NCBI GenBank assembly: GCA_024276935.1
Contig: JAJRWH010000091.1
Location: forward strand, 1-42,476
From: Deltaproteobacteria bacterium
GTDB lineage: Bacteria > Desulfobacterota > Desulfuromonadia > Desulfuromonadales > Geopsychrobacteraceae
Length of the DNA: 42,476 nucleotides
Direction: 5' to 3'
Within the stretch, counting starts at the first letter, position 1. Each line of letters begins with the position of its first letter. The translations under genes were made by a program, and so were the position numbers. The notes under the pieces were generated by a model. It did not search any database and was not told the origin of the DNA. It saw nothing but the letters and a program-made list of their open reading frames with translations. Below are positions 12,504 to 22,603 of the stretch, one piece after another.

Positions 12504-12643
12504 GTGTTCTTCTCCTGTATTCAACCAACAAAATACCACTCTTACATCCTTGCAGAACCTCCATCAACTGATAAGATTGATTGGCTTTCATTATTGACGG
12601 CATATTTTTCAGCCAACAATTAACTCGGGTCAAAACAATCACC

Positions 12644-14236
12644 ATGAACCAGGCCACTAATCCGACAATTCTGACCATTGACGATGAGCAGTTGGTACGC
12701 CGCAGTTTTCGTCTATTTCTTGAAGATGGTGGTTATCAGGTTTTAGAGGCTGAAACCGGCCGTCAGGGGCTGCAAATGGCGACAAAGCACCACCCTGATC
12801 TGATCCTTCTCGACCTGCGTATGCCTGATTTTGATGGTCTGGCGACCCTCAGTCAGCTACAAGAGGAGTTAACCGAAATCCCGGTTGTTGTCATTTCCGG
12901 AACCGGAGATATTCGGGACGTTATCGAAGCACTTCGCCGCGGCGCCTGGGATTATCTGACCAAACCTCTGACAAACATGGCTGTTTTGGAACACGCCATC
13001 GAGCGATCTCTTGAACAATCACGACTGCGACGGGAAAATCTGAGTTACCAGGAATCTCTGGAAAGCAAAGTTCAAAAACGGACCTATGAACTTGAAGAGG
13101 CCTGTCGCCAGCTCGACACCAGCAAACAAACCCTTGAAGCCCTGTTCCAGGCGGCACCTCTGGCTGTCGTCCTGCTGGACGGCCAACAACGTGTCACCTT
13201 ATGGAACCGGGGTGCAGAGCAACTGTTTGGTTGGCTGGCAACTGAAGTTGAAGGCAACCCCTGTCCTTTGCTGGACAGTTTGAAGACTGAAGACAAAAAA
13301 ACTCTCTCAACTCAGGGAATGAGTGGACAAGAGTTGATACTTTGCAATCGAACAGGTGCAAAACTGACCGTCAGTTTATCGACGGCCTGGCTTGACAACA
13401 ACCGCCATCAAGCGGGAGGGATGGTCCTGCTCTTTGAGGATATCGCTGAAAAAAAACGCTTGCAGGCCGAAGCCGATCGCGCCAACCGTTTGGCATCACT
13501 GGGCCAACTGGCGGCAGGAGTCGCTCATGAAATAAACAATCCCAACGGACTTGTTCTGCTCAACATGCCAACCCTGCATGATATTCTGACCGATGCACTC
13601 GACACTCTGGCTGAGCTGAAACCGGCAACACAGGTTGGGGGTCTGTCCATTGAACGAGCACGGGAACTGGTTCCGCAACTGACCGATGAGATGGAGGATG
13701 CCGCACGGCGTATCCGCCAGATTGTTGAAGATCTGAAAGATTTTGCGCGACGTGATTCACAAGAAAGTACGATTGACTTTGACTTGAACCGTTCTGCAGA
13801 AAAAGCCCTCAGGTTGGCCAATAATACGATCAAGAAAACCACTGACCGCTTCAGCTGTGAGCTTGACGAACCGCTCCCGTTGGTTCACGGCAATCCTCAA
13901 CGTATCGAACAGGTGATCGTCAACCTGCTGGTCAATGCCTGTGAAGCGCTGAGCAAGCGGAGTGATCGGTTGCAACTTGTCACCCGTGCCGACAGAACCA
14001 ATGGTCAGGTCGACCTGCTGGTCATCGATCAGGGAGTCGGTATTGATCCCAACAACATGAAGCACATCACCGATCCCTTTTTTACCACCCGCCGTGAAGC
14101 AGGTGGGACGGGCCTCGGACTCTCGGTTTCAGCACGTATTGTTCGTGAGCATGGTGGTCAACTGCTATTTGACTCTCAACCGGGTAAAGGCACCTGTGCC
14201 ACCTTGCGTTTGCCAATCCATCAGGAGTTGTTATGA
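12644..14236 (+). CDS. Hybrid sensor histidine kinase (REC-PAS-HisKA-HATPase)
   Basis: The 530-residue soluble protein begins with a full receiver domain (phosphoacceptor Asp57 in LLDLRMPDFDG), followed by a coiled-coil linker and a PAS domain (residues about 165-270). A HisKA dimerisation domain with the phosphorylated His295 (AHEINNP) and an HATPase_c domain (N box VNLLVNACEAL, G boxes DQGVGID and GGTGLGLS) complete it. It has no membrane segment, so it senses a cytoplasmic signal or is driven by another kinase through its receiver. The ATG at 12644 was chosen because the receiver begins eight residues later; a longer frame starts at TTG 12581, but neither has a strong ribosome site. It overlaps the next gene by ATGA. 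Confidence 0.92.
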   Translation: MNQATNPTILTIDDEQLVRRSFRLFLEDGGYQVLEAETGRQGLQMATKHHPDLILLDLRMPDFDGLATLSQLQEELTEIPVVVISGTGDIRDVIEALRRGAWDYLTKPLTNMAVLEHAIERSLEQSRLRRENLSYQESLESKVQKRTYELEEACRQLDTSKQTLEALFQAAPLAVVLLDGQQRVTLWNRGAEQLFGWLATEVEGNPCPLLDSLKTEDKKTLSTQGMSGQELILCNRTGAKLTVSLSTAWLDNNRHQAGGMVLLFEDIAEKKRLQAEADRANRLASLGQLAAGVAHEINNPNGLVLLNMPTLHDILTDALDTLAELKPATQVGGLSIERARELVPQLTDEMEDAARRIRQIVEDLKDFARRDSQESTIDFDLNRSAEKALRLANNTIKKTTDRFSCELDEPLPLVHGNPQRIEQVIVNLLVNACEALSKRSDRLQLVTRADRTNGQVDLLVIDQGVGIDPNNMKHITDPFFTTRREAGGTGLGLSVSARIVREHGGQLLFDSQPGKGTCATLRLPIHQELL

Positions 14237-15633
14237 GCGAACTGCACAATCTCTCTGTCCTGCTGGTTGATGACGAAACGGCCTGGCTGAACGGCCTGGC
14301 GATCGCCCTGGAACGTTCAGCAGGAATCACCAATATTCAACGCTGCAATGACAGTCGCCAGGTTCTTGACCTTTTACACCAAAAACCAGTAGACCTGGTC
14401 CTGCTCGACATCACCATGCCTCACCTCACGGGGGATGAACTTTTGCCGCTGATTCTGGCCGAACACCCCGATCTACCCGTCATTGTTCTGACAGGAATAA
14501 ACCAGATCGAACTCTCTGTTCGCTGCATGAAATTGGGGGCTTTCGACTTTTTTGTCAAAAGCATAGAACAGGATCAATTACTGGCTGGCATTACCCGGGC
14601 ATTCAAAATGCTGTCCCTGCAAAATGAAAACCGTCAGCTCAATGATTCTTTTCAGAGGCAGCAACTCAAGAACCCTGAAGTCTTCAGCCAAATTATCAGT
14701 GCTGATCCGCAGATGATCTCAATCTGCCGCTACCTTGAAGCTGTTGCTCCCGGTCCGCACCCGGTGCTGATCAGTGGCGAAAGTGGCACAGGCAAAGAGC
14801 TCATTGCCCGTGCCGTCCACCAATTGAGCCGACCCAAAGCACCCTGGGTCGCGATAAATGTTGCCGGACTCGACGACAACGTTTTCTCAGACAGCCTTTT
14901 TGGTCATCTGCGTGGTGCCTTTACCGGTGCCGATCGTTCCCGCCCCGGCATGGTCGAAAGTGCCGCAGGGGGCACCTTGTTTCTTGATGAAATCGGCGAT
15001 CTGAGTCATGGGTCGCAGGTCAAGTTGCTCCGCCTGCTGCAGGAGGGAGAATATCTGCCTCTGGGGGCCGACAAGCCACGCAAAGCAAATATCCGGATTG
15101 TTGTCGCAACCAACTGCAACCTCGAAACGGCCATGAATGAGGGACGCTTTCGCCGCGATTTATTTTATCGTCTGGCTGCCCATCGAGTTGATTTACCACC
15201 ACTGCGCGACCGACGTGGTGATATCCCCCTGCTACTCGATCACCTGTTAAGTGAAGAGGCGAAAAAACTGGGCCGCGTCCCACCAAAATATCCCCGGGAG
15301 CTTCCTGTTCTTCTGGGAACTTACAGCTTTCCCGGCAATGTTCGTGAACTGAGTGCAATGGTTTCGGATGCCCTTGGAACCCATGAAACAGGCACCTTGT
15401 CAATGCGCGCATTTCGTTCAGTCATCAATAACAATGTGATGGCTATTGAACAGAAAAATGTCGGGCCCAAACTGACCTTTGGCGATCAACTGCCAACCTT
15501 GCAGGAAACAGGTGAACTGCTTGTTGCAGAGGCCATGGAGCGTGCCTGTGGCAACCAGACCATCGCCGCATCCATGTTGGGTATTTCACGGCCAGCGCTA
15601 AGTAAACGGCTAAAAAAAATCCAGTCAGCCTGA
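14233..15633 (+). CDS. NtrC-family sigma-54 response regulator
   Basis: The 466-residue protein has the three domains of an enhancer-binding protein. Residues 1-120 are a receiver (phosphoacceptor Asp59 in LVLLDITMP). Residues about 150-385 are an AAA+ ATPase (Walker A GESGTGKE at 182-189, Walker B GGTLFLDEIGD). The GAFTGA loop at 228-233 that contacts sigma-54 is intact. A Fis-type helix-turn-helix closes it (residues about 430-466, NQTIAASMLGISRPALSKRLKK). It is translationally coupled to the histidine kinase. Phosphorylation should enable it to open sigma-54 promoters. A consensus sigma-54 promoter lies about 190 bases past its stop, so the following operon is the likeliest target. Confidence 0.95.
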   Translation: MSELHNLSVLLVDDETAWLNGLAIALERSAGITNIQRCNDSRQVLDLLHQKPVDLVLLDITMPHLTGDELLPLILAEHPDLPVIVLTGINQIELSVRCMKLGAFDFFVKSIEQDQLLAGITRAFKMLSLQNENRQLNDSFQRQQLKNPEVFSQIISADPQMISICRYLEAVAPGPHPVLISGESGTGKELIARAVHQLSRPKAPWVAINVAGLDDNVFSDSLFGHLRGAFTGADRSRPGMVESAAGGTLFLDEIGDLSHGSQVKLLRLLQEGEYLPLGADKPRKANIRIVVATNCNLETAMNEGRFRRDLFYRLAAHRVDLPPLRDRRGDIPLLLDHLLSEEAKKLGRVPPKYPRELPVLLGTYSFPGNVRELSAMVSDALGTHETGTLSMRAFRSVINNNVMAIEQKNVGPKLTFGDQLPTLQETGELLVAEAMERACGNQTIAASMLGISRPALSKRLKKIQSA

Positions 15634-15641
15634 CAAGAACA

Positions 15642-15751
15642 GGGGTGTAACCCTGGTTTCATCAATCGATCCGGTTACCCCCACGCCAGTCCCCATTTTC
15701 AGGGCATTCCATGGCAACGATCATTTTATGCTGCAACCCTGGTTACACCCC
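15642..15751. promoter_or_regulatory. Candidate enhancer sites: paired GTAACC/GGTTAC palindromes
   Basis: Two copies of an (G)TAACC-CT-GGTTAC-type palindrome are centred at about 15653 (GTAACCCTGGTTTC) and 15739 (GCAACCCTGGTTAC), 86 bases apart. The outer halves, GGGGTGTAACC (15642-15652) and GGTTACACCCC (15741-15751), are exact reverse complements. A further half site GGTTACC lies at 15673-15679. They sit about 110 and 200 bases before the predicted sigma-54 start point, the range used by NtrC-type activators. Binding by the adjacent regulator is inference. Confidence 0.55.
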
Positions 15752-15825
15752 CCGGTCATGTATCAACAAGTCAAGAAACAGTTTTTCATCAATAAAATAA
15801 GTATCTTGCAGATCAACTTCCATCT

Positions 15826-15840
15826 TGGCACCAGCATTGC
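15826..15840 (+). promoter_or_regulatory. Sigma-54 (-24/-12) promoter of the degenerate-receiver/MCP operon
   Basis: TGGCAC-CAGCA-TTGC matches the sigma-54 consensus TGGCAC-N5-TTGC exactly, with the GG and GC doublets 12 bases apart. Transcription would start near 15851, some 46 bases before the ATG at 15897. Confidence 0.82.
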
Positions 15841-15896
15841 TTTTCTTCTCCAACTGTCATCGCATAAATCTTTTTTTCTTTTGCTGGATAGTTCGT

Positions 15897-16367
15897 ATGA
15901 GAGAGCTCCGTCACATTCTGGTCGCTGACTGTGCCAACGTATCGCCCTCAAATATCGCCTTTTTGTTAAAACTGGCCGGATTTAAAGTCAGTATTTTCAA
16001 CGACGAACTTGAGGCCTGTAATTGGTTGTTGCAGCAAGACCCCAAGGACAATCCCGCAGACATGCTCTTGCTCAACGAACCTCATCATGATCGCTCTCTT
16101 TTTGCCCTGTTATTTCAAATGCGGCAAAGATTTGCCAACCTTGAATTACTGCTTGTCGCCGGACATCCTCTTGAATTGACCGGTCAAATCACAGATCTAA
16201 GTCCTCCGGTACACCAGTGTATGCCCAACGAAGTCCACAGCGTGACTCGTCAGGTTTTCAACAGGGTGGGAATACCGGCAAACCCTCAGTCCCATCAACC
16301 ATCAGCAGACACCGGCAGGAGCCGGAAGAATTACGACCTGTATCAGGTCGGGCAGGAGAAACCATGA
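15897..16367 (+). CDS. Degenerate receiver-like protein
   Basis: The 156-residue protein follows the alternating pattern of a response-regulator receiver over residues 5-125 ([52 protein letters not shown]). It lacks the working residues. The phosphoacceptor position is Asn60 instead of Asp, the Thr/Ser switch is Ala88, and the expected Lys-Pro is Met109-Pro. It is therefore likely unable to be phosphorylated and may act as a protein-protein partner. A polar tail follows. The ATG at 15897 has only a weak GGA ribosome site. It overlaps the MCP start by ATGA, so both proteins are made together, and it lies behind a sigma-54 promoter. Confidence 0.6.
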
Positions 16368-18175
16368 AAATAAGAAACCTGAATATTGGTAAAAAAATCT
16401 ATCTGGTCACAACATTACTGATCGCAATCTTTACTCTGAATGCCCTGTGGCTTTACTCCAACTACCGCGACAACCTCTATGAAAGTCGTCAGCGTGAACT
16501 GATTACCGCCGTCGATACCGCCTGGGGAATCATCGATCATTACAGCAAAGAAGTTGGTGAAGATCTCAGCCGATCAGAGGCTCAGGATCTGGCAAAAGCT
16601 GCAATCCGCACGATGCGCTATCAGGGCAATGCCTATTTCTGGATCAATGACACCACCCCTAAAATGATCATGCACCCGATCAAACCAGCCCTTGAAGGCA
16701 AAAATCTTGCGGGAGTCAAAGATCCCGACGGGCTCTACCTGTTCAACGAAATGGTCAAAGTTGCCAAGGCAAGTGGAGCAGGATTTGTCAAATACCAATG
16801 GGAAAAGCCGGGCAAAGAGGGGCCACAGCCTAAATTGAGCTATATCAAAATTCATCCTGACTGGGGATGGATTATTGGCAGCGGAGTCTACCTCGACGAT
16901 CTAAATGCCGCTGTCAACCGGGTATTCTGGTCTGTCATGGCCGTACTGCTGGCAGCTATTCTGGTTTCAGGTGGTCTGGTTTTCTTTCTTGCCCGGATGG
17001 TTTCTCGGCCCATGCACCGCGCAGTTGAGATGATTGAAGAGATGGAACAGGGAGATCTCAGCACCCGCCTGAAGATGGATCAGAAAGATGAAATTGGCCG
17101 GATGGCCAAGGCCATGGACAGTTTTGCCGACAGTCTGCAAAATGAGATGGTCGCTTCACTACGAAAACTTGCCGAAGGTGATTTGACTTTTCACATCGAG
17201 CCACGGGGGCCAAAAGATGAGATTCGTGGCGCTCTGAAACAACTGGAGGTTCAGTTGAATGATGTGATGGGCCAGATTCAATCGGCAGGTGAACAAATTG
17301 CGGCAGGCAGCGTACATGTCAGCGATTCTGCGCAATCATTATCGCAAGGGGCAACTGAATCGGCCAGTTCTCTCGAAGAAATCAGCAGCTCCCTGACTGA
17401 ACTGACCTCACAGACCAAACAGAACGCAGCCAACGCCAACCAGGTCAACCAGTTGTCGACAGAGGCCCAGGGTGCAGTCGATGCCGGGAACCAGCAAATG
17501 AAACGCATGGTTGGCGCAATGGAAGAAATTAACGAAGCAGGCCAAAACATCAGCAAAATCATCAAGGTTATCGACGAGATTGCCTTTCAAACCAACCTGT
17601 TGGCACTCAACGCGGCGGTAGAGGCTGCTCGGGCGGGCCAGCATGGTAAGGGATTCGCAGTCGTGGCTGAAGAGGTTCGTAATCTTGCTGCCCGCAGTGC
17701 CAAGGCGGCCAAGGAGACGGCTGAACTGATCGAAGGTTCCGTTCAGAAAACGGCAAATGGTGCCACCATCGCCAGTGACACGGCAGAATCACTGCAACAG
17801 ATTTCGGCTCAGGTCACCAAGGTTTCAGATCTGGCAGAAGAAATCGCTGCTGCGTCGGATGAGCAGGCCAACGGCATCGAACAGATAAATCAAGGAATAG
17901 GCCAGATCGATTCAGTCACGCAACAGAATACGGCCAATGCCGAAGAAAGTGCCGCCAGTGCTGAAGAGCTTTCCGGACAGGCAACTCAGCTGCAAGGGAT
18001 GTTACGGCGCTTCCGCCTCAAGCAAAGTACAACTCTTCAGGCCACCGCTCCCGTTGCTCCGCGTCAGGCACCGCAAACCTCCGGCTGGGGAAGCGCCCCG
18101 GCGCAACCCCGGCAACACCAGGCTGGTGCCCCCGCAGTAATCGCCCTGGATGACACAGAGTTCGGCAAGTATTGA
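16364..18175 (+). CDS. Methyl-accepting chemotaxis protein with Cache_2 sensor
   Basis: This 603-residue transmembrane chemoreceptor starts at the ATG at 16364, where AGGAG lies at 16354-16358. It has TM1 (about 11-32), a periplasmic single-Cache (sCache_2) domain (about 40-185, with [12 protein letters not shown] and [16 protein letters not shown]) and TM2 (about 187-209). A HAMP domain and a long coiled-coil signalling domain follow. The highly conserved tip is present ([23 protein letters not shown], then [16 protein letters not shown]). The Cache_2 type often binds small organic ligands such as carboxylates. The tail is Pro/Gln/Ala-rich and lacks an NWETF-type CheR docking peptide. A CheA/CheW partner must be encoded elsewhere. 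Confidence 0.95.
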
Positions 18176-22588: not shown

Positions 22589-22603
22589 TGGCACCATCCT
22601 TGC
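22589..22603 (+). promoter_or_regulatory. Sigma-54 (-24/-12) promoter of the orphan Cache-HAMP gene
   Basis: TGGCAC-CATCC-TTGC matches the sigma-54 consensus with GG and GC 12 bases apart, as in the promoter at 15826. Predicted start is near 22614, some 40 bases before the ATG at 22653. Confidence 0.75.

Follow-up and report, generated by a model that had tools for sequence, protein, structure and literature searches.

Enhancer-binding proteins are commonly encoded beside their sigma-54 targets. The searched text of PMC2725144 describes one such case in Geobacter sulfurreducens, where the dcuB gene has a sigma-54 promoter confirmed by primer extension and an enhancer-binding-protein gene upstream. 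In the NorR/norVW system, three enhancer sites precede the sigma-54 promoter and are needed for oligomer assembly (searched portion of PMC2941729, citing Tucker et al. 2010). The parts of the Desulfovibrio sigma-54 regulome study that were searched (PMC4641369) report regulators co-localized with small sigma-54 regulons, e.g., DVU2956, and one site with three half-sites that was shown by gel shift. Here, we describe a locus in a window of 42,476 nucleotides (the whole stretch of DNA that was analyzed; contig JAJRWH010000091.1). We think it very likely, reasoning from sequence comparison, that a 263-bp gap at this locus is a sigma-54 control region and that two operons for carboxylate chemoreceptors form a regulon under a Group I (NtrC-type) enhancer-binding protein.

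The regulator is an NtrC-type response regulator encoded at 14233 to 15633 on the plus strand. It has a receiver domain (PF00072 at residues 9 to 119; E value, 1e-24) with Asp59 within LVLLDITMP, a sigma-54 interaction AAA+ domain (PF00158; E value, 1.4e-56) with GAFTGA within HLRGAFTGADR, and a Fis-type helix-turn-helix (HTH) domain (PF02954; E value, 1e-07; 32 bits against a cutoff of 22) with Arg453 in its recognition helix. The regulator scored 310.9 bits against the nitrogen regulator NtrC equivalog TIGR01818 (cutoff, 558.6) and 251.1 bits against NorR NF003451 (cutoff, 476), and its N terminus is a receiver rather than a GAF domain. No other listed NCBIfam equivalog reached its cutoff. 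We therefore assign it no further than to the Group I enhancer-binding proteins. The probable cognate kinase gene (12581 to 14236, plus strand; REC-PAS-HisKA-HATPase) overlaps the start of the regulator gene by 4 bases, lies beside the regulator in relatives too, and may truly start at ATG 12644. The genome has two RpoN homologues (L236 on contig C94 and L237 on contig C84), both above the family cutoff.

The first gene of the target operon (15897 to 16367, plus strand) encodes a 156-amino-acid receiver-like protein with Asn60 (LLLN) at the phospho-Asp position. We found no Pfam match for this protein. A receiver fold is predicted with a mean pLDDT of 78, the tail past residue 124 being unreliable, and the best structural matches are mostly receivers. 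Together with Asn60, the predicted fold and these matches suggest that "degenerate receiver" fits this protein. The second gene (16364 to 18175, plus strand) encodes a chemoreceptor with matches to sCache_2, HAMP, and MCP signaling domains and with the propionate-contact residues of PscD.

Between the regulator and the target operon, we found TGGCACCAGCATTGC at 15826 to 15840 on the plus strand. As originally predicted, it matches the sigma-54 promoter core TGGCAC-N5-TTGC without a mismatch; both the -24 GG and the -12 GC elements are present, and the core is kept in orthologues. The transcript start is predicted near 15851. The gap also holds three candidate operators, to which no strand is assigned. 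Operator A (TGTAACCCTGGTTTCA; 15646 to 15661; center, 15653.5) is a palindrome with GGGG on its left flank that starts 180 bp before the -24 element, and operator B (TGCAACCCTGGTTACA; 15732 to 15747; center, 15739.5) is a palindrome followed by CCCC that starts 94 bp before it. The original prediction described two GTAACC-CT-GGTTAC palindromes. Both are there, with centers 86 bp apart, but neither copy is perfect: each is 16 bp long with one mispaired position (6 of 7 pairs), so GTAACC-CT-GGTTAC is only their joint consensus. The outer halves, GGGGTGTAACC (15642 to 15652) and GGTTACACCCC (15741 to 15751), are indeed exact reverse complements over 11 bases, as had been claimed.

A and B are confirmed as sequence features, but a third element had been missed. 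A repeat search pairs GGGTGTAACC with GGTTACCCCC, which places the right half of operator A' 18 bp past that of A. Of A' (15664 to 15679), which lies exactly 18 bp past A, only the right half, GGTTACC (15673 to 15679), is strong, and the palindrome as a whole is weak; this half-conserved element recurs at the same lag in relatives. That A' is only a half-site and that both full palindromes are imperfect is a point against the proposed reading of the locus. The 86-bp spacing, first read as about 8.2 helical turns, holds as a distance, but what matters is its place in a fixed 18/86 geometry. When the 263-bp gap was shuffled with its dinucleotides preserved, two like palindromes arose in 0 of 20,000 cases and an exact sigma-54 core in 9 of 20,000; an exact 11-bp inverted repeat arose in 21 of 5,000 shuffles of the region. 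Elsewhere in the window, a second exact core, TGGCACCATCCTTGC (22589 to 22603), ends roughly 50 bp upstream of ATG 22653, which belongs to a gene for a putative membrane sensor protein; we noticed no TGTAAC-type palindrome in the short stretch that we read ahead of this core.

The gene order kinase-regulator-receiver-MCP is kept in four related genomes, G003, G008, G013, and G027 (the G027 receiver was matched in a separate search). The original prediction had named the lack of the palindrome before orthologous operons as evidence that would count against it. We found that the sites and the sigma-54 box are preserved behind regulator orthologues of 89%, 66%, and 66% identity, and that a 71% orthologue (L081) is followed by a GTTACACCCC half-site and the box, not by full palindromes. 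The G003 gap has both palindromes with the core in register, and the G013 and G027 gaps have variant A, A', and B, also with the core in register. The G008 gap has the core, and its sites are reduced to one GTTACACCCC half-site.

It had also been proposed to search the genome for the palindrome together with TGGCAC-N5-TTGC, and this yielded one more promoter, that of an operon on contig C95. Without mismatches, TGNAACCNNGGTTNCA occurs genome-wide only at sites A and B and once on contig C72 inside a reading frame. We dropped this C72 site and a near-match on C56, since each falls within a reading frame and lacks a sigma-54 core that fits. Most of the roughly 20 near-match sites elsewhere in the genome likewise lie within reading frames and have no fitting core, and only C95 was retained. 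We then scanned 136 genomes of the order with an extended B pattern, GTTACACCCC-N62-90-TGGC-N7-TTGC, and found 8 matches in 6 genomes, exactly two of them in this genome; the reversed control pattern had 0 matches in the 136 genomes. The second match here is on C95, in the same layout as the first, before an operon that encodes a second MCP along with a secreted sCache_2 protein; the gene upstream of this operon points the other way. The C95-type layout is conserved in G003 and in G005, whose 71%-complete assembly yielded the sites but no close regulator. In G007, which is without a close regulator orthologue, the C95-type sites and sigma-54 core are absent. G013 and G027, whose regulator orthologues are more distant, have a C95-type gene without the sites, so this second target appears to be restricted to close relatives. 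The C95 operon is very probably also driven by the regulator at 14233 to 15633.

The reading frame of the C95 MCP has an in-frame TGA after 460 residues (L009:7760-7762), and the orthologous frame in G003 (L108) runs uninterrupted for 694 residues; the stop is either a true interruption or a sequence error. In G048 (L105/L111) and G130 (L104/L110), an extended B site and a sigma-54 core stand before other genes, which in G130 encode a large membrane sensor and then a Cache protein. These genes are possible further members of the regulon.

To place the locus in its family, we collected the loci of 109 distinct homologous regulators and scored the geometry of the 61 with a sigma-54 core. The targets behind these regulators, typed by short sequence signatures, include receivers, DctA, Dcu, TAXI-TRAP, and Rex-like genes among others. 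The layout recurs behind both orthologues and paralogues of the regulator in Desulfuromonadales relatives. In the 61 loci, sites stood 18 bp apart 16 times (against a mean of 0.1 and a maximum of 2 in shuffles) and 85 to 90 bp apart 20 times (against a mean of 0.5 and a maximum of 4). We rejected a lag of 12, which is a self-overlap of the motif. Where recognizable, B lies mostly 92 to 96, A' 160 to 165, and A 178 to 183 bp before the -24 element, and the positions of B and A are the same in the Arg and Gln groups defined below. B lies at 82 to 83 bp in a few loci, and at many loci only some of the three elements are visible.

We found that the operator sequence varies with residue 453, the bracketed position of the recognition helix GIS[R]PALSKRL. 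Arg453 occurs with G at operator base 2 in 16 of 16 half-site readings, as in this regulator and its sites, Gln453 with A in 33 of 34, and Ala or Pro with T in 34 of 34. The pairing holds in 83 of 84 readings overall (98 of 100 for right half-sites alone), but these represent two independent changes, readings within clades are not independent, and the pattern was spotted before the formal count. Among all HTH columns, residue 453 is the best predictor of base 2 (1.5 of 1.5 bits), and the two change together twice on the tree. The Arg/Gln split alone is one tree event, and we did not count it as strong evidence before a second event came with the Ala/Pro group. Arg-G and Gln-A are the usual major-groove contacts. 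When we looked in the open-access literature for mutants of the corresponding NtrC residue, only the same-numbered residue of sigma-54 turned up.

In Geomonas, regulators before DctA-like genes (L132, L133, L135, L137, L138, and L145) carry Ala or Pro in place of Arg453, and the operators at their loci read TTAACC-N2-GGTTAA, again about 18 bp apart. Regulators with a GITRQALNWRL helix (L151, L163, L166, L168, and L169) precede receivers that retain Asp and Lys, and after these comes a secreted protein whose end may be rhodanese-like; the sites resemble CGCAAA-N4-TTGCA and, in most cases, lie about 95 bp upstream of the sigma-54 core. In this genome, a further Arg-type paralogue (L099, contig C105 of G000) is followed by a sigma-54 core and a TGTAACC half-site, without the 18/86 layout, and could cross-bind.

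The Cache domain of the chemoreceptor (P0004) aligns to PscD (5g4y; E value, 4.8e-44) and to Adeh_3718 (4k08). In PscD, Tyr90, Trp92, His103, Phe126, Tyr143, Trp145, and Lys156 contact propionate, and the ligands are glycolate, acetate, propionate, and pyruvate (PMC5062169). Equivalents of all seven residues are kept in P0004, and the secreted C95 Cache protein, read against the alignment, has all seven too. Since both domains keep the PscD contact residues, the PscD ligand range points to C2/C3 carboxylates as their likely ligands.

The sites might be true operators of a sigma-54 activator whose acting partner is a paralogue encoded elsewhere, such as the one on C105, with adjacency being incidental. 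The C105 protein likewise has Arg as the corresponding helix residue, a TGTAACC-like site follows its gene, and G005 retains C95-type sites with no close orthologue found in its incomplete assembly. However, the regulator and the sites remain adjacent in orthologues, and family-wide each regulator's own downstream sites bear the base that matches its residue 453. The C105 gap is also without the 18/86 layout, and G007, among the fairly complete genomes of the same genus, has neither the close regulator nor C95-type sites. We consider action by a paralogue unlikely.

Operator A starts only 13 bp past the regulator stop codon, so the sites are close to the regulator's own gene, and the regulator could be mainly a repressor or autoregulator, with the operon on another promoter and the sigma-54 core incidental. 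This is more improbable still: GAFTGA is intact, the core lies at a fixed distance from B family-wide, so exact a core appeared in only 9 of the 20,000 shuffles, and no sigma-70-like promoter was found in 15500 to 16000. We give almost no weight to the idea that the repeats are an RNA element or terminator, with GC-rich arms pairing into a hairpin by which the kinase-regulator transcript would be ended or attenuated. One weak stem of 5 pairs that resembles a terminator, at 15640 to 15655 (0.4 expected), would fit, but it is on the minus strand, the wrong one for the regulator transcript, and the repeats have no Rfam family match. Moreover, the same sites precede the C95 operon with its oppositely running upstream gene, and their sequence varies with a residue in the helix of the protein, a dependence not expected of an RNA hairpin.

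Activation by the adjacent regulator, as the original prediction had it, is supported by the intact receiver, GAFTGA, and HTH, the presence of a sigma-54 gene, the conserved sites, and the residue-453 covariation. In the mechanism that we propose, the co-encoded kinase (12581 to 14236) presumably phosphorylates the regulator (14233 to 15633), whose dimers would bind A, A', and B through the Fis-type HTH; the G:C pair at operator position 2 would be read by Arg453. The regulator would assemble into an active AAA+ ring, probably a hexamer. The spacer would loop, the ring would remodel sigma-54 polymerase at 15826 to 15840, and transcription of the degenerate-receiver and sCache_2 chemoreceptor genes would begin near 15851. 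The same regulator would also activate the C95 operon (secreted sCache_2 protein and MCP). This scheme builds on the observed site positions, conservation, geometry, residue-base covariation, second promoter, and Cache pocket residues. The system probably serves to adjust how many sensors for C2/C3 carboxylates, e.g., acetate, are available.

On balance, we lean toward a broader reading, in which the regulator belongs to a large undescribed Desulfuromonadales family of enhancer-binding proteins with a rigid three-dimer enhancer (A, A' at +18, B at +86 to 90, and the -24 element at +178 to 183) and a one-residue recognition-helix code. Under the Arg-G, Gln-A, and Ala/Pro-T code, the carboxylate-receptor, DctA, Dcu, TAXI-TRAP, and Rex-like paralogues would be held apart largely by one base pair. 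In the open-access literature that we searched, we found no earlier description of this operator. What was an annotation guess becomes a testable regulon, in which a dedicated two-component system would govern how many C2/C3-carboxylate (possibly acetate) chemoreceptors are available to bacteria of an order known for oxidizing these carboxylates. The fixed three-site geometry and the 453/base-2 relation make the operators and targets of many paralogous regulators readable from sequence, and they offer an inexpensive and direct way to test how enhancer-binding proteins select DNA through their Fis-type helices.

Compared with G. sulfurreducens dcuB, as covered by the searched text of PMC2725144, this locus is similar in having the regulator gene upstream, and Dcu-type transporters are among the targets of this regulator's paralogues. 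In contrast, the dcuB target is a C4-dicarboxylate exchanger, and the searched text makes no mention of a palindromic operator; the paralogues here with a Dcu target have Gln at the residue-453 position, whereas this regulator has Arg. The locus shares with NorR/norVW, in the part of that literature searched, three sites in an intergenic region adjoining the regulator gene, but NorR senses nitric oxide with a GAF domain, and the regulator here has a receiver input and another operator sequence. The Desulfovibrio sigma-54 regulons were found by the same comparative logic (searched text of PMC4641369, which includes no TGTAAC motif); they are from the order Desulfovibrionales, and about half of their motifs match no other. 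Unlike PscD-type chemoreceptors, the C95 protein consists of a stand-alone domain that is secreted, and the ligands here are predicted from sequence. Like PscD, McpP, and Adeh_3718 (PMC5062169; PDB 5g4y and 4k08), both P0004 and the C95 protein have equivalents of the seven contact residues.
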